Source: Clostridia bacterium (GTDB lineage: Bacteria > Bacillota > Peptococcia > DRI-13 > UBA5745). From it: a DNA stretch of 64,000 nucleotides. The stretch spans positions 1 through 64,000 of the forward strand of contig JAHDMJ010000032.1 of assembly GCA_018436095.1 (NCBI GenBank). The letters are read 5' to 3'. Of the stretch, positions 1,104-30,388 are shown one piece after another (position 1 is the stretch's first letter; each line of letters begins with the position of its first letter). The position numbers were made by a program, and so were the translations under genes. The notes beneath the pieces were generated by a model. That model did no database searches and was not told the origin of the DNA. It saw only the letters and a list, made by a program, of their open reading frames with translations.

Positions 1104-1727
1104 ATGAGAGAGAAAAAGCCTGATAAAAGAAAAGTACAAGGAGCGGAAACGAGAAAGAAGCTGTACGAGATTGCGAAAAAGCTGTTTTCAGAGCGCAACT
1201 TCTCTGACGTAAATGTAGAGGACATCACGGATGAAGCCGGTATCACCAAGGGGGCCTTTTATGTGCACTTCGAGTCTAAGGATGCGCTGATTGCCATTTT
1301 AATTGCAGACTACGTAGCCAGCGCCGATACGAATTACAAAACCTTTGTGGAAGCACTGCCCAATGAGATGCCAGCCACAGAGGTAATTCTTGCGCTGACC
1401 CAAAAGATAGCCGATGAACTTGTAGATACCGTCGGCTGCGAGAATATGAAAAAGATCTATCAGATGCTGCTGACGGGAACCGTGGACACCGAAGCGGTCA
1501 AGGGCTATGGCAGAGAGCTTTACTTGCTGTTTTACAGCATATTGGACAAGGGCATCCGGCGCGGTGAGATCACATCTTCATTGCCGTTGGAGTCTCTTTC
1601 CCGACATTTTGTGATGGCGATAAGGGGCGTTAGTTATGAATGGTGCATCCGATCTCCGGATTTTGACCTCAAGGTGCAGGCCGTGGAGCATTGCCGGTTG
1701 CTGGTTGAGGGAGTGAAAGCAAAGTAG
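1104..1727 (+). CDS. TetR/AcrR family transcriptional regulator
   Basis: 207 aa. The N-terminal helix-turn-helix is clear (about residues 15-60; VEDITDEAGITKGAFYVHFE is the TetR signature), followed by an all-helical ligand-binding/dimer domain. The start is preceded by GAGGAGAGGAAAC. It is a close paralogue of the regulator at 10989-11621, with long identical runs such as GAFYVHFESKDALIA, GTVDTEAVKGYGRE and AIRGVSYEWCIR. Each paralogue is divergent from a large secreted protein and each shares the TAACC/GGTTA element. Likely a repressor of the adjacent surface-protein gene and of itself; the inducer is unknown. Confidence 0.92.
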   Translation: MREKKPDKRKVQGAETRKKLYEIAKKLFSERNFSDVNVEDITDEAGITKGAFYVHFESKDALIAILIADYVASADTNYKTFVEALPNEMPATEVILALTQKIADELVDTVGCENMKKIYQMLLTGTVDTEAVKGYGRELYLLFYSILDKGIRRGEITSSLPLESLSRHFVMAIRGVSYEWCIRSPDFDLKVQAVEHCRLLVEGVKAK

Positions 1728-2520: not shown

Positions 2521-3447
2521 TTAAAACTTATATTTGTTCCGCAGATATTGGCTATCTAAAGCCGAAAGGCGGGTGGCGCCGGTCTGCATGCTTAATACGG
2601 CTATTCCCGCCACGTAAGGCAAAAGCTGCAGCATTTCCGGCGGTATACCAATGACTCCGTTGATCTGTAATTGCAATTGGACGGCGTCAAAAAAGCCCAG
2701 CAATAAAGCGGTGCCCAAAATTCCCTTAGGCTCCCATTTGCCCATTTTTACCGCAATTACCGCCAGCATGCCTTTGCCGGCAATCATGCCCTCAAAAAAC
2801 CGGTCCAACTGCCCTAAAGACATATAGGCCCCGGCAATACCGCAAAGCAGGCCGCAGATCAACACGCCGCTGTAGCGCATTTTCCAGACGTCGATACCGG
2901 CCGTCTCTACAGTACGGGGGTCATCCCCCACCATCTGTACCCTGAGGCCGTATGGGGTCCGGAAAATTACGAAATAGGAGATCACTGCAATCAGTCCCCC
3001 CAGATAAACCAGGGGCGAAAGAGCGCCTAAATACTTGCCCAACACCGGCAGGCCCTGCAGAATTTTTGTGGTCTGCAAAGCCGCCACATTAGGAGTAAAG
3101 GTGGAGCCGAAAATGGAAAGGCACAGAAATTTGGTCACACCGTTAAACAGCATAGTAATACCCAGGCCGCTGATGGCGTGGAGGCCGCCGAATTCCACAC
3201 AGATTAAGGCATGAATAGCCCCTGCCACCAAGCCGCCAACCATACCGCAGAGCACGCCGATCCAGGGATTGCCGGTGTAATATGAGCCCAGCACCGCAGC
3301 AAAAGCACCGCTGACCATCATACCCTCAGCGCCCAGGTTCAGGATTCCTACCCTTTCACAATACATATTGCCCAGGCCGGCGATAAACATGGGGGTACTC
3401 AGCCTGATTACCGACAGCAACAATACCACAAAAAATCCTAAGGTCAT
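2521..3447 (-). CDS. BMP-family nucleoside ABC transporter, permease 2
   Basis: 308 aa integral membrane permease of the branched-chain-amino-acid/ribose permease superfamily (BPD_transp_2), the NupC/YufQ-like subunit of basic-membrane-protein-type nucleoside transporters. Diagnostic stretches are NLGAEGMMVSGA, GLHAISGLGITMLFNG and ETAGIDVWKMRYSGVLICG. About 8-9 hydrophobic segments. Its start overlaps the stop of permease 1 by ATGA (3444-3447), so translation is probably coupled. Last gene of the operon. Substrate (purine or pyrimidine nucleosides) is inferred from family only. Confidence 0.9.
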   Translation of the reverse strand: MTLGFFVVLLLSVIRLSTPMFIAGLGNMYCERVGILNLGAEGMMVSGAFAAVLGSYYTGNPWIGVLCGMVGGLVAGAIHALICVEFGGLHAISGLGITMLFNGVTKFLCLSIFGSTFTPNVAALQTTKILQGLPVLGKYLGALSPLVYLGGLIAVISYFVIFRTPYGLRVQMVGDDPRTVETAGIDVWKMRYSGVLICGLLCGIAGAYMSLGQLDRFFEGMIAGKGMLAVIAVKMGKWEPKGILGTALLLGFFDAVQLQLQINGVIGIPPEMLQLLPYVAGIAVLSMQTGATRLSALDSQYLRNKYKF

Positions 3448-4517
3448 TTGGCTGCCTCCTTCCCCTTTTTATCTGCCCGGCGCCGGTTCAATAAATATTT
3501 AACGAAATAATTGGCGGCAATGCAGAGGATCAGAGAGCCTTGAATGACAGAGATGATTTCGTCGGAAATGCCCACCTTGGCCTGCATGGTTAAAGAGCCG
3601 GTTCTTAAAGCCCCAAAGAGCAGGCTGCCCAATATACTGATCAAGGGGCTGCCGCCCGAAAGCAGGGCGATAGGTATGCCGTCATAGCCGTAGCCGGGAG
3701 AGAAATCGATATACAGCCGGTGATGATTGCCCAAAATCTCCAGGCCGCCGCCAACGCCGGCTAAAGCGCCGCTAAGCAGCAGGCCCAGCAGCATATACCT
3801 ATTGATGTCGATACCGGCATAACGGGCTGCTTCCGGGCTTAAGCCCACGGCCCGCATTTCATAGCCTGCTGTAGAACGGCGAAAAAACAGTTCCAATATA
3901 ATCGCTACGGCCAGCACAATTAAAATAGCAATGGTTAGCCGGTAAGGAGGCCCAATCAGGTAAGGCAGCCGGGCGCTTTCCATGATTCTATCCGTGGAAG
4001 GCACCAGGGCATTATCGGAGGCAAAGGCATCGAGAACAAAAAACTGCAGCAGGAACCTGGCAATATTGTTCATCAGCAGCAAGACTACCAGAAGGTTAAT
4101 GCCCCGTTTCACCCGCAGAAGAGCGGGGATTAGAGCAAAAGCCATACCGCCCAGAGCCGCCGCCAATATCGCCGCCGGAATATGAATGGCTGCCGGCAGG
4201 CCTTTCAGGAAGATACCGGCCATAGTGGCGCCAAAAGCTCCCATGGCTAATTGCCCTTCCGCTCCGATATTAAAAACATTGGCTTTAGTGGACACAATTA
4301 CCGCAAAGGAGGCAAAGGCAATGGGCACCGATTTTTTGATGGTATTGACGATACCGCTTGTGGAACCGAAGGCCCCGGCAAACAAAGCGCTGTAGGCTTC
4401 CAGAGGACTTTTGCCCATAAAGCTGATCCAGACGGCGCTGAATAAAAAGGCAATGAAAATCAAAATCAAAGGCACCAGGGCATCTTTAAGCCGCAGTTTG
4501 AAGGAGTTCAGATTCAT
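3444..4517 (-). CDS. BMP-family nucleoside ABC transporter, permease 1
   Basis: 357 aa, multi-spanning, NupB/YufP-like subunit. Family hallmarks include NVFNIGAEGQLAMGAFGATM, RVKRGINLLVVLLLMNNIA and AVGLSPEAARYAGID. It overlaps the ATPase gene upstream by ATGA (4514-4517) and permease 2 downstream. It pairs with permease 2 to form the membrane channel driven by the duplicated-domain ATPase. A homologous but clearly different set lies at 60182-63834. Confidence 0.9.
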   Translation of the reverse strand: MNLNSFKLRLKDALVPLILIFIAFLFSAVWISFMGKSPLEAYSALFAGAFGSTSGIVNTIKKSVPIAFASFAVIVSTKANVFNIGAEGQLAMGAFGATMAGIFLKGLPAAIHIPAAILAAALGGMAFALIPALLRVKRGINLLVVLLLMNNIARFLLQFFVLDAFASDNALVPSTDRIMESARLPYLIGPPYRLTIAILIVLAVAIILELFFRRSTAGYEMRAVGLSPEAARYAGIDINRYMLLGLLLSGALAGVGGGLEILGNHHRLYIDFSPGYGYDGIPIALLSGGSPLISILGSLLFGALRTGSLTMQAKVGISDEIISVIQGSLILCIAANYFVKYLLNRRRADKKGKEAAK

Positions 4518-6088
4518 GAAACCGGCTCCTCCTTTCTGCTTTCAGCTTGCTTGCCGCCTTTGGCCGCCTCTCCCTGCTTAGGCAAAGAACTGCCCACCAT
4601 CATCATACCGATTTGCTCCCTGGTAGCTGAGGCGCTGTCCAAAATCCCCATTAAGCGGCCGTCAAAGAAAACGGCAATTCTATCGGATAGCATCATCAAC
4701 TCGTCCAGCTCCAAAGAAACTAAGAGCACACTGCCCCCTTTATTTCTATGGTCAATCAAGATATTATGAATCGCTTCGATGGCTCCCACATCCACCCCTC
4801 TGGTAGGTTGATCCGCCACAATCAACTGAGGACGGCTGCCCATTTCTCTGGCCACAACCACCTTTTGCTGATTGCCGCCGGAGAGCATGGACACCCGGAC
4901 ACTTTCACCGGGGGTGCGGATGTCGTATTCCTTGATCCTTTTTTGGGCGCCGCTGATCACAGCCTTACTGTTAACCCCTATCTTATATTGGCAGTATTCG
5001 GGCCGCCGCTGAAAGCCCAAAACAAGATTTTCCGCTATACTGAAATCCATGACCAAGCCGTGCTTCTGGCGGTCTTGAGCAATAAAACCGATGCCCCCCT
5101 TCTTGCGCTGGGCCACGGTCTTGCCGGTGATATCCCGGTCCTGAAATTTAATGGAGCCTGCCGACGGCGTCAATACCCCCGCCACAATTTCCGCCAGTTG
5201 ACTCTGACCGCTGCCGTCAATGCCGGCAAGACCCAATACTTCACCCTTATGCAAAACCAGGGATATCCCTTTTAATACCTTCCGGCCCTCGGCAACGTAG
5301 CCGATATCCGTCAGGCGCAAGGCTTCTTCCTTGCCGGGGGCGCTTTCCTTGCGGCCGCCTAATTGCACATCCCGGCCCACCATCAGCCTGGTCAGCTCTG
5401 GTATATCCGTGGCTTCCTTGCGCAGGGTAGCGATATGCTTACCCCCCCGCAACACAGAAATATCATCGCTGAAGTCCATCACCTCTTCCAGCTTGTGAGT
5501 GATGATGATGATTGTTTTGCCCCCTTCTTTTAATTGACGGAGGATCTCGCCCAGGTCATCGATCTCCTGGGGCGTCAGTACGGCGGTGGGCTCGTCCAGA
5601 ATAATGATCTCGGCGCCCCGGTAAAGGGTCTTGACGATCTCCACCCGCTGCTGCATGCCTAAAGAAATATCCGCTACTTTTTTACCAGGGTCCACTTGAA
5701 TATTGTGCCGGCTGCAAACCTCAGCCACCTTGGCGATGGCCCCTTTGCGGTCATAAAGCAAGCCCTTTCTCGGTTCCTTGCCCAAAACCACATTATCGGC
5801 CACCGTCAGTCTGGGCACCAGCATAAAATGCTGGTGAACCATGCCGATACCGCAGGCTATGGCATCGGTGGCGCTGCCGAAAACCTGCTTTTGACCGTTG
5901 ATCAGAATCTCCCCTTGATCCGGCTTATGCAGGCCGTAAAGAATGTTCATCAACGTAGATTTGCCGGCGCCATTCTCGCCAATAATGGCATGAACGGTCC
6001 CGGCTTTAATGGCAATATCGATATGGTCGTTGGCCAGCACGGCGGGAAACCTTTTGGTTATGCCCCGCATCTCAACTGCGTAAACCAC
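4514..6088 (-). CDS. BMP-family nucleoside ABC transporter, ATP-binding protein
   Basis: 524 aa with two fused ABC cassettes, as usual for sugar/nucleoside importers of this class. Cassette 1 has Walker A GENGAGKST (about residue 38), a signature region SLGMQQRVEI and Walker B IIILDEPTAVL. Cassette 2 has the degenerate Walker A GIDGSGQSQ and signature LSGGNQQK with Walker B LIVADQPTRGVD. The C-terminal tail is charged. It is in operon order after the binding protein (6166) with a gap of 77 bases and overlaps the next permease. Energises import of nucleosides at the inner face of the membrane. Confidence 0.93.
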   Translation of the reverse strand: MVYAVEMRGITKRFPAVLANDHIDIAIKAGTVHAIIGENGAGKSTLMNILYGLHKPDQGEILINGQKQVFGSATDAIACGIGMVHQHFMLVPRLTVADNVVLGKEPRKGLLYDRKGAIAKVAEVCSRHNIQVDPGKKVADISLGMQQRVEIVKTLYRGAEIIILDEPTAVLTPQEIDDLGEILRQLKEGGKTIIIITHKLEEVMDFSDDISVLRGGKHIATLRKEATDIPELTRLMVGRDVQLGGRKESAPGKEEALRLTDIGYVAEGRKVLKGISLVLHKGEVLGLAGIDGSGQSQLAEIVAGVLTPSAGSIKFQDRDITGKTVAQRKKGGIGFIAQDRQKHGLVMDFSIAENLVLGFQRRPEYCQYKIGVNSKAVISGAQKRIKEYDIRTPGESVRVSMLSGGNQQKVVVAREMGSRPQLIVADQPTRGVDVGAIEAIHNILIDHRNKGGSVLLVSLELDELMMLSDRIAVFFDGRLMGILDSASATREQIGMMMVGSSLPKQGEAAKGGKQAESRKEEPVS

Positions 6089-6165: not shown

Positions 6166-7230
6166 TTATTTTGCAATATAAGCATTATAGGCGGCTTCAT
6201 CGGTGGGAGGCACAATCTCACCGGAAACGATCTTCGCCTCAATCTCCGCCATCTTATCCTTGATCTCCTGAGGAATCTGATCGCCGATCAGGGGAGAGAT
6301 CCGGATGCCGGTAGCGCCGTCTTTCAGGCCGGCCTTAATAATACCGGCAGGCATTTCGCCGGCAATAAATTGCTTGCAAACTTCATTGAAGTATTCATCG
6401 GTTTTGATGATGTGGGAGGCCAGAATGCGCTCCGGGGAAAGGTTGAACTGGCCGGTAGCCGCACCCATGGCAAAATTGCCCTCGGGCAAGGATTCTACCG
6501 CCTGATAGACGCCGTTGGCAGCGCCGCCGGCAAAAGCCTGAACGATGACCATACCCTCGCCGTACATCTGCAGAGCTAATTCCTTAGCTTTGGCAATATC
6601 CTGGAAGTCCCCTACGTAAGATTCCACTGCCTCGCCGCCGGCATAATGGGCGCCGGCCTGGAAGCTGTAACGGCACATTTCCAGATCGTTAATACGCATG
6701 CCGCCGATCCAGCCTACTTTGTTGACGCCGGCCAGGTGCTCGCTCATCATTACCGCAAAAGCGCCGCCGATAAAGCCGGCCTGAGGCTCTTCAAACTGGA
6801 TGGAGGTACAGTTATCATAGCCGTCTACCGTACCTTTATTCAGGATGTAATGAGTATCGGGGAAGTCTTCCAAAACCTCGGGCATTAACTCGCTGACGGT
6901 GCCGCCCATAATTACCATATCATAGCCTTGTTCGCCAAAGTTTCTGGCATGGATGGCATGATCGCTGAGCTCAGATACTTCTACCTTCGTCACCGGGATA
7001 CCTGTATCGGCAGTAAAAGCGTCAACGGCAGCTTTCAGAGCGTCATTAAGGCCATTATCGCCAAATTTGCCGGCGGCTACCAGACCGATCTTCCACTCCT
7101 TATCACCGGCAGCAGGCTCAGTGGCGCTGCCCGCAGGTTCAGTGACTCCCGGTTCTGCCGGTTTAGAACCGCAGGCTCCAAGGGTAAATACCAGCAAAAC
7201 CATTAAAAGAACCGAAAGCATTTTCTTCAT
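6166..7230 (-). CDS. BMP-family substrate-binding lipoprotein
   Basis: 354 aa from ATG at 7228-7230, chosen because AAGGAGTG lies about 10 bases upstream and MKKMLSVLLMVLLVFTLGAC is a complete lipoprotein signal with lipobox LGAC; a TTG 21 bases further upstream would overlap the ribosome binding site. Mature part is a periplasmic-binding-protein fold of the basic membrane protein/PnrA family (KIGLVAAGKFGDNGLND near the start). Delivers nucleosides to the permeases encoded downstream. It begins 45 bases after the MBL-HD gene, so it probably belongs to the same transcript. Confidence 0.92.
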   Translation of the reverse strand: MKKMLSVLLMVLLVFTLGACGSKPAEPGVTEPAGSATEPAAGDKEWKIGLVAAGKFGDNGLNDALKAAVDAFTADTGIPVTKVEVSELSDHAIHARNFGEQGYDMVIMGGTVSELMPEVLEDFPDTHYILNKGTVDGYDNCTSIQFEEPQAGFIGGAFAVMMSEHLAGVNKVGWIGGMRINDLEMCRYSFQAGAHYAGGEAVESYVGDFQDIAKAKELALQMYGEGMVIVQAFAGGAANGVYQAVESLPEGNFAMGAATGQFNLSPERILASHIIKTDEYFNEVCKQFIAGEMPAGIIKAGLKDGATGIRISPLIGDQIPQEIKDKMAEIEAKIVSGEIVPPTDEAAYNAYIAK

Positions 7231-7275
7231 GTTTGTATTACACTCCTTCAATACGTTTTGTTCACTGTATTACCT

Positions 7276-8775
7276 TTATATGTACTGCTCAAGAAGGCTG
7301 TCGTGAAGCCCTCCTTCAACTGCGCACTCGCCGTAAAGCGATTGCAGGTAGTTGATCATAAAACGGTGCCTCTCTTCGGCAATAGCTTTGGCCGCAGGCG
7401 TATTCATCAGCTCTTTAAGGTGAAGGAGCTTCTCATAAAAATGATTTACCGTACTGGACTTGACGGTTCTATCTTTGTATTCGGCTTTACCCATCATGGT
7501 TCGGGGGGGCAAATCCGGATCAAAAAGCAGATTGCCCAGAGAGGAGCCGGTAGCGAAAGCCCGGGCTACCCCGATAGCCCCTATGGCATCCAAACGGTCG
7601 GCATCCTGCACGATCTCGCCCTCCGCCGTCTTCATGGGGCTGGGGCTGGCCGTACCTTTAAACGAAAGATCCAAAATAATCTCTTTAACATGTTCAATGC
7701 CTTGATCCTCAAGACCCAGCGTTTTAAGCCAGGCTGCGGCTGCCCGGGGGCCTGCCGTCTCATCGCCGCCGGCAAATTTCCAGTCTTCAATATCGTGAAG
7801 CAAAGCCGCTAACGCCACAATACGCATATCTACCGGTTTCTCGCTGGCCCGGCCCAGCCTGAGGGCCATCTGGTAAACCCGCTGAGTATGATGAAAATCA
7901 TGGCCCGTCGTCTCAGCACTTTGCAGTTTTTTCATATGGGCAATGGTTTTTTGAACCAGCTTGTCGGTTTCGGGATCATACTGGGCGCCGGCTTGCGCCC
8001 CTGCCTGACCGTCGGCGCCATTTTCTGCGGCTTCCTTCGCTCCTTCTTCGAGGGCAAAATCCATCCGCTGATGCTGCCGCAAAAATCGCAGTCCCTCCTG
8101 CCGGAAGGGCGGCGCCAAAAGGCCGTGATGCATTAAATAGAGGCAATCCTTGATATGCTGGGGATAGCCTTTAATCTTCTCGAAGCCGGCGTGAACGGCA
8201 GAACCATTTAAAGTGCAATCATGGAAAATGATCCGCACTCCCTGGGCATAAAGGCTTTCCAAAAGCGCTAAATCCGCCACCATATCGGAGGTATAAAAGA
8301 GCTTTTCGGCAATGACCAGGCCGCAACTAAACTTACCGGGCACATGATTGGTTTTGACCCAACGGGCGGTAATGCCGCCGCAGAGGTCAAAAACCTGGTT
8401 TTCTTCCGGCGCAACAACATGAAAAAAATCCTCCGGGCAGCTTGTCCCCGGCTGGTCCGAGGTTAAACCCGCAGAAAGATAATTGTCCCACAGCGGCTGG
8501 CGCAGGGGAGCAGGCACAATCAGCTCTATGGGCTGATTGGTGAAATATTTCGTATAAAGGGCTAATGGCTCCAGTCCGCCGGCATGATCAAAGTGAATAT
8601 GGCTGAGAAAAACCCGCCGGATATCGTTTACCGACAGCCCCAGAGAGCTTAAACTTTCCCAGGCCGTGATGCCGCAGTCAATCAGAGCTTTTTCCCCGCC
8701 GGCCTCCAGCAGGGCGTTATTATTATATACACCAGGCGAAAAGCCGTTTCCTACACCTAACATAGTGATATGCAT
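7276..8775 (-). CDS. Metallo-beta-lactamase-fold / HD-domain fusion hydrolase
   Basis: 499 aa from ATG 8773-8775 (preceded by AGGGAGGGATAGTC). N-terminal half is a metallo-beta-lactamase fold with the metal motif SHIHFDHAGG (His59, His61, Asp63, His64), closest in style to RNase Z/phosphodiesterase-type members. After a Gly/Ala/Gln-rich linker (about residues 242-270) comes an HD-superfamily phosphohydrolase domain (HDFHHTQRVYQMA ... ALLHDIEDWKF) like the YedJ/PGPase-type stand-alone HD proteins. Two metal hydrolases on one chain suggest sequential hydrolysis of a phosphoester, but the substrate is unknown. Head gene of the nucleoside transporter operon, with a GGACATATGTCC palindrome 53 bases upstream. 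Confidence 0.88.
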   Translation of the reverse strand: MHITMLGVGNGFSPGVYNNNALLEAGGEKALIDCGITAWESLSSLGLSVNDIRRVFLSHIHFDHAGGLEPLALYTKYFTNQPIELIVPAPLRQPLWDNYLSAGLTSDQPGTSCPEDFFHVVAPEENQVFDLCGGITARWVKTNHVPGKFSCGLVIAEKLFYTSDMVADLALLESLYAQGVRIIFHDCTLNGSAVHAGFEKIKGYPQHIKDCLYLMHHGLLAPPFRQEGLRFLRQHQRMDFALEEGAKEAAENGADGQAGAQAGAQYDPETDKLVQKTIAHMKKLQSAETTGHDFHHTQRVYQMALRLGRASEKPVDMRIVALAALLHDIEDWKFAGGDETAGPRAAAAWLKTLGLEDQGIEHVKEIILDLSFKGTASPSPMKTAEGEIVQDADRLDAIGAIGVARAFATGSSLGNLLFDPDLPPRTMMGKAEYKDRTVKSSTVNHFYEKLLHLKELMNTPAAKAIAEERHRFMINYLQSLYGECAVEGGLHDSLLEQYI

Positions 8776-8827
8776 GACTATCCCTCCCTGCAAGCGTATA
8801 GTATCCTATAGGCGGCCCCAGGTGATA

Positions 8828-8839
8828 GGACATATGTCC
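8828..8839. promoter_or_regulatory. Palindromic operator GGACATATGTCC (copy 1)
   Basis: Perfect 12-bp palindrome between the Crp/Fnr-type regulator gene and the MBL-HD gene. An identical copy lies at 9642-9653. Twofold symmetry and location fit a dimeric Crp-family site; binding by the neighbouring regulator is inferred. Confidence 0.6.
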
Positions 8840-8937
8840 CGTTTTAGGTAAAAATCGAGTAAAAGCGGCAGAACAAGAGCATGTTCATCTATAGCTGACA
8901 TGGCCTTTTCTTCAGCCTGCTTCCCCGCAACATTGCT

Positions 8938-9603
8938 TTACTGATAGACTGCCAGCTTCTTCAGCTCTGCGGCGTCCATTACCTGCAGCCGGCCCCGGCC
9001 CGTCCGCAGTACCATTCCTTCCTTTTCCATTTCTCCAAGGAGCCGTCCTAAATGCCGGGGAGTGATGCCAAAATGCTCCGCCAGCTTGTTTTTATGATAG
9101 AGCAGCTCACCGTCCCCTTGATCCAGGAAATAGCGGGCCAGGCGGTTTTTAGCCGGATAGAGCAAAGTAAAGGAATAACTGGTGGAAGAGCGAAAGAGCT
9201 TTTCAATAGTGCTGCTGCAAGCCAATTTGTAAAAAGCCACATTGTTCTCCAAATATTGCTCCGTCAAGGTCATCGGGATAGCAATAAGGGTAACGGCGGT
9301 TTCGGCCACTACATTATGAAGGGTATCTCTTTTCAAGAGTATTTCAATATCCCCAAAAAGGCTGGGGGGCTCCTCCACCGCAATACTGATCATTTTGCCG
9401 GCCTCCGATACGGAAAAAACCCGCAGCTTACCTACTGCTAAAATAGTGAAATGATTTACCGGCTCGCCGCTGCGCATCACCATTTCCCCTTTTTCATAAT
9501 GAAACAGGCTGGCCCCTTTCTCTACTTCCGGCACAAAAATATCCTTTAGCTTATATTTATCGATATAGGCTTTTAATTTTACAGCGTCTCTTTCACTTCT
9601 CAT
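8938..9603 (-). CDS. Crp/Fnr-family transcriptional regulator
   Basis: 221 aa. N-terminal cyclic-nucleotide-binding-like beta barrel (YEKGEMVMRSGEPVNHFTIL ... SLFGDIEIL, roughly residues 30-115), long dimer helix, and C-terminal winged helix (NKLAEHFGITPRHLGRLLGE, about residues 170-190). It has no Fnr-type N-terminal cysteine cluster, so the signal is not an Fe-S cluster; in layout it is like YeiL-type regulators. It sits between two perfect GGACATATGTCC palindromes, one in front of its own promoter and the divergent SAHH-like gene, the other in front of the downstream MBL-HD/nucleoside operon. Likely autoregulated local regulator. Confidence 0.9.
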   Translation of the reverse strand: MRSERDAVKLKAYIDKYKLKDIFVPEVEKGASLFHYEKGEMVMRSGEPVNHFTILAVGKLRVFSVSEAGKMISIAVEEPPSLFGDIEILLKRDTLHNVVAETAVTLIAIPMTLTEQYLENNVAFYKLACSSTIEKLFRSSTSYSFTLLYPAKNRLARYFLDQGDGELLYHKNKLAEHFGITPRHLGRLLGEMEKEGMVLRTGRGRLQVMDAAELKKLAVYQ

Positions 9604-9639
9604 GGCTTGATCCCTGCCTCCGGTCTATTAAGCGCTAAG

Positions 9640-9655
9640 AAGGACATATGTCCTT
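9640..9655. promoter_or_regulatory. Palindromic operator AAGGACATATGTCCTT (copy 2)
   Basis: Perfect 16-bp palindrome containing the same 12-bp core as at 8828, placed in the divergent promoter region between the Crp-like gene and the SAHH-like gene. Probably controls both directions. Confidence 0.6.
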
Positions 9656-9748
9656 TTTTTCAGTATACAAAATGCGTTATGGTAATGCTAGTGAAATTTT
9701 GCTCCCATAAGAGGCAAAATAAATGATTAGAAAAGCAGGTGGGCCATC

Positions 9749-10924
9749 ATGGAATCGATCATCGACGACCGGAGTCTGGCAGAAGTTGGCCAGCAAAGAA
9801 TGGGCTGGTTCAGAGAGCAGATGCCCTTAATTACCGCCATCAAAAAAACCTTCGAAAAAGAAAAGCCTTTTCAAGACCTGAATATCGCCATCTGCCTCCA
9901 TGTAGAGCCAAAAACCGCCTATTGGATCGAAGCCCTTTTAGCCGGCGGCGCCAGGCATATTTTCCTTGTAGGCTGCCTGGGTACTACCAAGCCGGATACC
10001 GCCGCTTTTTTGGCGGCCAAAGAACAGGTTACCGTCCTGGCCAAAGAAAAAGATACCATGGAGGACCATCAGCGCTATCTGGAAATGGTCATGAGCGAAA
10101 AGCCTCAGCTATTTCTGGACAACGGCGCCAGTCTGATCCTGGCCTACCACCAGCGGCAACGGGATTGGCTGCCTTTGGGCGCCAATGAGGAAACCCGTAC
10201 CGGCCGCTTGTTGATTGACGATTCCGGTTATAGCCTTAAGTTTCCCGTTATTGTCATTGATGATTCCCCTTTAAAAAAGTTGCTGGAAAATGCCGTAGGC
10301 GTCGGCCAATCTGTGGTGGACGGGCTGATGCGTTCCACCAGCCTGCTTTTGGGCGGCAAACGCATTCTGGTCATCGGCTACGGCTACTGCGGCAGCGGCA
10401 CCGCCGGCAAGCTGCGGGCCATGGGCGCCCACACCAGTGTCTACGATATCGACCCCGTCTATCTGCTGAAAGCCAAGGCTGACGGCCACCGGGTCAGCGA
10501 AGAACTGCCCGCTCTGATTGCCGAAGCCGATATCATCATTACCTTAACCGGCCGCTTCAATATCCTGACAGCAGAGCATATTCCTCATTTTAAGGACGGC
10601 GTCATTCTGGCCAATGCCGGCCACTTCGGCTTCGAGATCGACGTCCCCGGCCTTACGGCCCGGGCTGCCTCTATTGAGACCGTAGGCAAGGGCAAGCAAA
10701 TGCTGACTTTCCAGGATAAGCGCGTCTTCTTATTGGAAGAGGCCAATCCTCTCAACTTGTCTGCCGGCGACGGCAACCCCATTGAGATCATGGATTTAGG
10801 CCTTTCCCTTCAGGCTTTATGCGGCGCCCGTATCGCTACGGACCGCAGCCAACTGATAACCGGCGTCCAGCCGGTGCCCCGGGATATCGATTGCCTGGTC
10901 AGCCGCCAAATGATCAATAGCTAA
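9749..10924 (+). CDS. Divergent S-adenosylhomocysteine-hydrolase-like enzyme
   Basis: 391 aa, about 40 shorter than typical AHCY. Most catalytic positions align with the family: His51 (LHVEPKTA), Asp124 (FLDNGAS), Glu148 (EETRTG), Lys176 and Asn181 (DSPLKKLLEN), His282 (GHFGFEIDV). The family aspartate before the Asn is Glu180 here. The NAD-binding glycine loop is GYGYCGSG where typical enzymes have GYGDVGKG. The conserved C-terminal tail, which reaches into the partner's NAD site, is missing. Expected reaction: reversible hydrolysis of SAH, or a related thio-nucleoside such as S-inosylhomocysteine, to homocysteine and nucleoside. Context with a nucleoside importer supports nucleoside metabolism. 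ATG 9749 is preceded by AGGTGGGCCATC. Confidence 0.82.
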   Translation: MESIIDDRSLAEVGQQRMGWFREQMPLITAIKKTFEKEKPFQDLNIAICLHVEPKTAYWIEALLAGGARHIFLVGCLGTTKPDTAAFLAAKEQVTVLAKEKDTMEDHQRYLEMVMSEKPQLFLDNGASLILAYHQRQRDWLPLGANEETRTGRLLIDDSGYSLKFPVIVIDDSPLKKLLENAVGVGQSVVDGLMRSTSLLLGGKRILVIGYGYCGSGTAGKLRAMGAHTSVYDIDPVYLLKAKADGHRVSEELPALIAEADIIITLTGRFNILTAEHIPHFKDGVILANAGHFGFEIDVPGLTARAASIETVGKGKQMLTFQDKRVFLLEEANPLNLSAGDGNPIEIMDLGLSLQALCGARIATDRSQLITGVQPVPRDIDCLVSRQMINS

Positions 10925-10988: not shown

Positions 10989-11621
10989 CTATATTTTTTG
11001 ATTGGTTTTGAGCCCCTCCAGCAGCAGTTTAAAATGAGCCGTTGCCTGCTCCTTAAGGTCAAAGCCGGGATAGCGGATACACCATTCGTAACTGACACCC
11101 CGGATGGCCATGACCAGGTGCCGGGCAATTTCATCCACCGGCAGGCTGTTTTTAAATTTCCCCTGACGGATTCCTTTATTCAATACATCTTGAAATAATA
11201 GATAAAATTCCCGGCCATAGCCCTTGACCGCTTCAGTGTCCACGGTTCCTGCCAACAGCATCTGATAAACCTTTTTCATATTTTCATAGCCGATTGTGCC
11301 GGTGAGCACATCGGCTATTTTTGCAATTAGGGCGAGGAACACCTCGTCAGCAGGCATATGGTCCGGAAGCGCTTCCAAAAAAGACTTATAATCCATATCG
11401 GCTTGAGCGGCGTAATCGGCAATGATCAGAGCAATAAGCGCATCCTTCGATTCAAAGTGCACATAGAAGGCGCCTTTGGTGATACCGGCGGCATCGGTAA
11501 TATCCTCAACTCCTACAGAGGCAAAGTCCTTTTCTATAAAAAGACTCCGGGCACTATCATATAGTTTTTTTCTGGTTTCCGCCGCCTGCTCCTTTTTCTT
11601 GTTTGGCTTTTTTATTCTCAT
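10989..11621 (-). CDS. TetR/AcrR family transcriptional regulator (paralogue 2)
   Basis: 210 aa; helix-turn-helix signature VEDITDAAGITKGAFYVHFE at about residues 38-57, followed by the effector domain. Strongly similar over its whole length to the regulator at 1104-1727. The start follows AGGAGGGACAAGCGA. Divergent from the SLH-domain surface protein, with a 25-bp operator-like sequence at 11679-11703 between them. Likely represses the surface protein and itself; signal unknown. Confidence 0.92.
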   Translation of the reverse strand: MRIKKPNKKKEQAAETRKKLYDSARSLFIEKDFASVGVEDITDAAGITKGAFYVHFESKDALIALIIADYAAQADMDYKSFLEALPDHMPADEVFLALIAKIADVLTGTIGYENMKKVYQMLLAGTVDTEAVKGYGREFYLLFQDVLNKGIRQGKFKNSLPVDEIARHLVMAIRGVSYEWCIRYPGFDLKEQATAHFKLLLEGLKTNQKI

Positions 11622-29997: not shown

Positions 29998-30054
29998 CCG
30001 TTTTTGTGTGTACAGCACAACTGCTTCCCCTGCAGTGCGCTAAAATGACGGAAA

Positions 30055-30272
30055 GTGTAAGTCTCCTGACTTGCGTTAGGGAGGCTAATGCCTCCTGCGC
30101 CTGTATCCTACCTTCCCATGATGCTAACGCTTCACAGTGGCGGACTTTCGTCCAGACAGCGGTCCTTCGCTGCTTCGGTACAGCCTCACGCTTACAGTGC
30201 CGGTAACGCGGGGATTCTCACCCCATTCCATTTACGCCTCGGCCCTCAACAATACTGCGGGAACCGGAACGA
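30055..30272 (-). promoter_or_regulatory. Cobalamin riboswitch
   Basis: Minus-strand sequence contains the conserved cobalamin-aptamer blocks in order: GGGGTGAGAATCCCCGCG, GGCACTGTAAGCG, CCGCCACTGTG, CATGGGAAGG, and the terminal AAGTCAGGAGAC. It is followed by an intrinsic terminator and then the Opp/Nik-type operon. High cobalamin should cause premature termination, so the transporter is expected to be made when B12 is scarce. Outer boundaries are approximate. Confidence 0.93.
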
Positions 30273-30388
30273 CAACTTCCCCTTTTATTTTGCTCAATGA
30301 TCCAAATTATCAGAAAATCCTTTAAGTAGAATATCACAGAATCTTGACTAAGCCAAGCAAAAATTTTGTTCTGGTTTGGTAAAATTTA

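Follow-up and report, generated by a model that had tools for sequence, protein, structure and literature searches.

The window analysed here is a 64,000-nucleotide stretch of a Clostridia contig. It holds two divergent genes and an adjoining transport operon. A Crp-family regulator of 221 residues is encoded at positions 8938-9603 (minus strand) and, across the intergenic region, a 391-residue paralogue with the fold of S-adenosylhomocysteine hydrolase (SAHH), here called SAHHL, is encoded at 9749-10924 (plus strand). Downstream of the regulator gene on the minus strand, an operon begins with a fusion of an Apyc1/YhfI-type MBL phosphodiesterase domain to a YpgQ/YedJ-type HD domain (MBL-HD, 7276-8775), for which the ORF list gives a TTG start at 8793 and an RBS-like GGAGGGA favours the ATG at 8775. 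It continues with a BMP/PnrA-family substrate-binding lipoprotein (6166-7251, probable ATG at 7230; Pfam Bmp, 2.8e-42), a duplicated-ABC ATPase assigned by domain search (4514-6088) and two BMP-type permeases (3444-4517, BPD_transp_2; and 2521-3447, the last gene of the operon, with a 97% conserved partner in the related locus L064). Two TetR-family regulators that are 70% identical to each other (1104-1727, plus strand; 10989-11621, minus strand) bracket the locus, each beside a gene for a large secreted-type protein, and this TetR/secreted-protein module may have been duplicated around the nucleoside locus or may have received it as an insertion. Riboswitch control of the locus was rejected because there is no Rfam match before position 30041; a cobalamin riboswitch barely above its gathering score lies at 30041-30291 (minus strand).

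The first-pass annotation had reported one perfect palindrome in both the crp/SAHHL divergent promoter and the region before the MBL-HD gene. Both copies of GGACATATGTCC were found, the first at 8828-8839, ending 52 nt from the MBL-HD ATG, and the second at 9642-9653, between the divergent crp and SAHHL genes; their flanking sequences differ from each other. There is no third copy in the window, even with two mismatches permitted, and a genome-wide search, as that annotation had proposed, returned exactly these two in 3,706,710 bases, where by our own arithmetic about 0.2 perfect copies are expected by chance. Each copy is followed after 24 nt by a putative -10 hexamer, TACTAT (8798-8803, minus strand) towards the MBL-HD gene and TATGGT (9678-9683, plus strand) towards SAHHL. 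Both hexamers are weak, with 4/6 matches each, and the role given to TACTAT is deduced from a spacing that is kept across species. With the stricter pattern GGACN4GTCC-N24-TANNNT, only these two promoters match in the whole genome. Since a site 24 nt from a -10-like hexamer has its centre at about -41.5, the operator would be centred some 41.5 bp before the predicted transcription start at both promoters, which is the position of class II activators of the Crp/Fnr family. Operator 2 also overlaps the expected promoter region of the divergent crp gene, and autoregulation is plausible.

We scanned GTDB genomes for orthologues of SAHHL and found them at 54-95% in other Clostridia, Paenibacillus and Acidaminobacter, with more distant relatives (about 42-46%) in Vibrionaceae, Shewanella, Kordiimonas and others. 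The Crp/SAHHL pair is kept in Oscillospiraceae, Lachnospiraceae (L076), Paenibacillus and Acidaminobacter, and the entire MBL-HD/BMP operon in L064-L066. The crp/SAHHL intergenic regions of relatives contain GGACATATGTCC, GGACATTTGTCC or GGACTTTTGTCC, and at least 7 of the 8 site bases are present in 14/15 Crp-linked SAHHL promoters (shuffled mean 0.6; those from Paenibacillus nearly duplicate each other and do not count as fully independent). A -10-like hexamer, often TATACT, lies 23-24 nt downstream of the site in these promoters, the spacing being 23 instead of 24 in some relatives. Operator and spacing are common to the MBL-HD promoters of L064, L065 and L066. The Lachnospiraceae locus L076 has the same variant NGACAAATGTCA, that is (A/T)GACAAATGTCA, at both its SAHHL and its BMP promoters, and L077 has the variant GGTCATATGTCC before its HD gene and a second site with no good -10 at 24 nt. 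At three loci (L067-L069, Lachnospiraceae and others), SAHHL is present and neither regulator nor site was found nearby; in Pseudomonadota the partner of SAHHL is LysR, not Crp. The local regulon postulated earlier is borne out by the operator that regulator, SAHHL gene and MBL-HD/BMP operon share, and by the gene-neighbourhood comparison proposed with it, in which the Crp/SAHHL pairing recurs in several lineages.

The site also occurs away from SAHHL. The exact site, followed by TANNNT at 23-24 nt, gave 14 matches in 398 Bacillota genomes, against 4 in the control. The looser pattern GGACN4GTCCT-N23-TATAHT was discarded in the same genomes because it showed no enrichment (6 matches against 7); the signal is carried by the exact core. 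Allowing A/T at two core positions gave 41 matches against 0 in 150 Paenibacillaceae, and every operator locus inspected there lies at a gene for a YeiL-like Crp regulator, a YdcZ DMT transporter, SAHHL or a Gfo/Idh/MocA oxidoreductase. YeiL-like crp genes with the operator often have a NUDIX gene or a YdcZ DMT transporter beside them. For 36 sites the consensus reads AAAATAGGACATATGTCCTTTTTT, its core preset by the search pattern and its flanks free. A regulator homologue is encoded in 17/18 genomes tested; the site in the exception (L116 in G104) has no downstream gene, its genome has no YeiL-like regulator, and we take it as a chance match. One further palindrome (L115/L124 in G376) stands between a YeiL-like crp gene and two YdcZ-like transporter genes, with -10-like hexamers on both sides. 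In G053 an operator with TATAAT lies upstream of a gene of the 2',3'-cyclic phosphodiesterase/5'-nucleotidase family (L117, 1501-1598).

The Gfo/Idh/MocA gene is next after the divergent SAHHL gene in four genomes (G090, G490, G517 and G525), and in four others that also have SAHHL (G353, G459, G500 and G549) it is located at another place and is preceded by a separate copy of the operator. Sugar 3-ketoreductases are among the structurally solved relatives of this oxidoreductase; of the curated models, UDP-GlcNAc 3-dehydrogenase comes nearest to it, with a score far below the cut-off. Co-occurrence of SAHHL with the oxidoreductase (9/10 against 15/140, P=1.4e-7) is confounded, most of the genomes belonging to one shared genus, and we give it no weight as independent proof. 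Judged by these gene contexts, the operator appears to be that of a wider YeiL-like regulator branch and not private to SAH chemistry. Within this genome the palindrome is unique to the two promoters; in other genomes it also stands at other apparent targets of YeiL-like regulators. We found no published operator motif for this regulator branch in the open-access literature searched.

The regulator has the cNMP_binding fold and an HTH_Crp_2 domain (PF00027, 8e-15; PF13545, 2e-9; both above the gathering scores), as expected of the Crp/Fnr superfamily. Its best named family is YeiL (NCBIfam PRK10402, E=1.6e-25). At 90.1 bits it remains below the curated cut-off of 180, and we therefore call it YeiL-like rather than YeiL. 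The recognition helix GxxxRHxxR is kept in 10/10 aligned SAHHL-linked regulators, consistent with a common half-site. The G-A of the half-site is as far from the dyad as it is in the consensus sites of CRP and FNR. At the phosphate-binding positions Arg82/Ser83 of CRP, the aligned regulators have Leu/His or other residues and never the Arg-Ser pair; with this cAMP phosphate-binding pair missing, cAMP is disfavoured as the ligand.

In the operon, the HD domain of MBL-HD resembles the structures of YedJ and of YpgQ (5dqv). The MBL domain is of the Apyc1/YhfI type, with 155.9 bits on PF23023 (cut-off 50) and the HxHxDH motif in the form SHIHFDH; Apyc1/YhfI-like enzymes cleave cyclic mononucleotides (PMC9117128). 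The lipoprotein has the Bmp fold (PF02608), and its nearest solved structure is BmpD. The residues D98, D225 and K242 are listed as ribose contacts for BmpA (PMC13325309). With numbering checked by counting along BmpD, all three are replaced in the window lipoprotein (D98K, D225A and K242I), and D225 is also lost in the lipoprotein of L076. This loss of three ribose contacts makes a plain ribonucleoside improbable as the ligand. Both the altered pocket and an Apyc1-like MBL domain would fit a nucleoside that is phosphorylated or modified in its sugar.

SAHHL matches PF00670 (6e-35) and has the SAHH fold with its NAD domain. Its predicted structure (pLDDT 91.7) superposes on SAHHs over its full length (Z 54, rmsd 2.2 Å, 388 residues), a search result that confirms the predicted fold only and says nothing on the reaction. 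An ordinary, canonical SAHH, 34% identical to SAHHL and with the same HxExK base motif, is encoded elsewhere in the genome. SAHHL sequences form one clade (30 rows, 100/100 support) apart from the canonical SAHHs of the same genomes and phylum. In human numbering, Asp131 is replaced by Asn, Asp190 by Glu, His353 by Asn and Cys195 by Val in all 34/34 members, whereas positions 131, 190 and 353 are Asp, Asp and His in 49/49 canonical SAHHs. Asn353 also occurs in some divergent actinobacterial-type SAHHs in a smaller set, leaving 131 and 190 as the clean clade markers. Lys186, Glu156, Thr157, His55 and Asn191 are invariant in SAHHL; His301 is not, being C, M or Q in 4/34. The HxExK motif, present in 34/34, is frequent among canonical SAHHs of this phylum too and hence not discriminating. 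The mouse SAHH uses Asp131 to bond the 5'-OH and to pass the C4' proton, Asp190 with Glu156 to hold the 2'-OH, and Lys186 with Thr157 to hold the 3'-OH (PMC4647836). Set against these roles, the changes suggest that SAHHL keeps the 3'-redox half of the reaction and has the C4'/C5' half altered. An enzyme without Asp131 and with Lys186 and Thr157 probably has a substrate different from SAH, on whose ribose it performs redox chemistry, and the family models that name it adenosylhomocysteinase are probably wrong.

SAHHL might instead be an ordinary second SAH or S-inosylhomocysteine hydrolase, in a regulon that salvages extracellular SAH-like compounds. Its fold, at Z 54 to SAHH, agrees with this, as does the HxExK motif, which has been tied to hypoxanthine-containing substrates (PMC10978960). 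So does a Clostridiaceae MAG (L104, 8200-16099) in which an mtnA-like gene, a small Crp gene, a canonical-type SAHH and a BMP transporter stand in a row. We consider this explanation unlikely, since the three residues Asp131, Asp190 and His353 are exchanged in every member of the clade and kept in all 49 canonical relatives compared, Asp131 is the residue that handles the C4' proton and contacts the 5'-OH in the mouse enzyme (PMC4647836), a canonical SAHH with the same HxExK is already present in the genome, and the binding pocket of the transporter is altered. The same replacements weaken the original suggestion that the substrate is SAH-related.

The nucleoside theme of the first-pass annotation gains from the neighbours of SAHHL in relatives, which include nucleoside transporters of three unrelated families. 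NupC is the next gene after SAHHL in Vibrio and Photobacterium and lies within about 2-9 kb of it in Shewanella. Paenibacillus pinihumi has SAHHL upstream of purine nucleoside phosphorylase, NupG and phosphopentomutase (DeoB) and, in G109, the same operator stands before a Crp gene and a uridine-phosphorylase-type gene. One strain of Vibrio splendidus has two LysR/SAHHL/NupC modules on different contigs (L094, L095). Two Photobacterium species have a Na+/H+ antiporter-family gene (PF03553) downstream of SAHHL (L103, 11935-13431; L107) and no NupC in the stretch examined.

A phosphorylated or cyclic nucleotide could also be what the operon imports and degrades: the MBL domain would open a cyclic phosphate, the HD domain would handle a phosphate or pyrophosphate and SAHHL would act on the nucleoside. 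This would account for the Apyc1/YhfI-like HxHxDH domain (PMC9117128), the YpgQ-like HD domain, the Lys in place of the ribose-binding Asp98 of the lipoprotein and the operator before the 2',3'-cyclic phosphodiesterase/5'-nucleotidase-family gene of G053. However, the loci of Acidaminobacter and Paenibacillus lack the MBL part, the compounds carried by NupC and NupG are nucleosides, the best regulator homologue in G053 is weak (E 9e-19) and the window regulator has no Arg/Ser pair for cAMP. We judge a nucleotide improbable as the imported compound. That the two sites pair up by chance, or stem from promoter duplication, and have no regulatory meaning, as a short 12-mer with no excess over shuffles in the window at two mismatches might suggest, is very improbable and was rejected on genome-wide uniqueness, conserved spacing, conservation over Bacilli and Clostridia, the 41 against 0 count in Paenibacillaceae and the unlike flanks of the two copies.

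Taken together, we favour, with a probability of roughly 0.72, the reading that the palindrome is the operator of the YeiL-like regulator in a regulon that imports and processes a nucleoside-like compound. A dimer of this regulator would bind the palindrome at about -41.5 and activate the SAHHL promoter and the MBL-HD/BMP operon promoter in class II fashion, and might in addition repress the divergent gene that encodes it. The BMP transporter would import the nucleoside-like compound, which the regulon would then process, with SAHHL keeping its NAD domain and the 3'-OH holders Lys186 and Thr157 and having lost Asp131, the C4' proton acid. The regulatory core of this reading, namely one YeiL-like regulator with its operator, class II geometry and two targets, is strongly supported by the sequence comparisons, and the altered residues and gene neighbours lead us to infer that a nucleoside-like compound distinct from SAH is taken up and processed by redox chemistry. 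Tentatively, the SAHHL clade could be an NAD-dependent nucleoside 3'-oxidoreductase, epimerase or "redox nucleosidase" that works via a 3'-keto nucleoside without homocysteine, in Paenibacillus cooperating with the sugar-3-ketoreductase-like Gfo/Idh/MocA enzyme under the same YeiL-type operator. The analysis gives a widespread YeiL-like Crp branch a candidate DNA operator and promoter geometry. This operator links an SAHH-fold clade, an unusual BMP transporter, the YdcZ exporter family and a sugar oxidoreductase, and offers a route to partners of the SAHHL pathway in other genomes.

Several known systems resemble parts of this regulon. E. coli YeiL, a member of the Crp/Fnr superfamily whose gene is linked to nucleoside genes, has the same domain layout and length as the window regulator. 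Class II activation by E. coli CRP has the same centring; the window system differs from CRP in its GGAC half-site, its RHxxR helix and the lack of the cAMP-binding Arg82/Ser83. The transporter is like the nucleoside ABC transporters PnrA, BmpD and BmpA in its lipoprotein family, its stacking Phe176 and its operon of lipoprotein, double ATPase and two permeases, and unlike them in a pocket with F27L besides the three ribose-contact replacements. SAHHL shares fold, NAD domain, Lys186, Thr157, Glu156, His55 and HxExK with S-adenosylhomocysteine and S-inosylhomocysteine hydrolases (e.g. Pyrococcus 7R37), but has Asn131, Glu190, Asn353 and Val195 and stands in a separate clade. A precedent for an SAHH-fold enzyme that does not accept SAH is AgmF of angustmycin biosynthesis, an SAHH-like dehydratase whose substrate is an unusual nucleoside (PMC8599513). 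AgmF keeps and needs D129 and D188 (PMC8599513), which from the description in that paper we equate with positions 131 and 190, and SAHHL, in which both are replaced, departs from the AgmF type.
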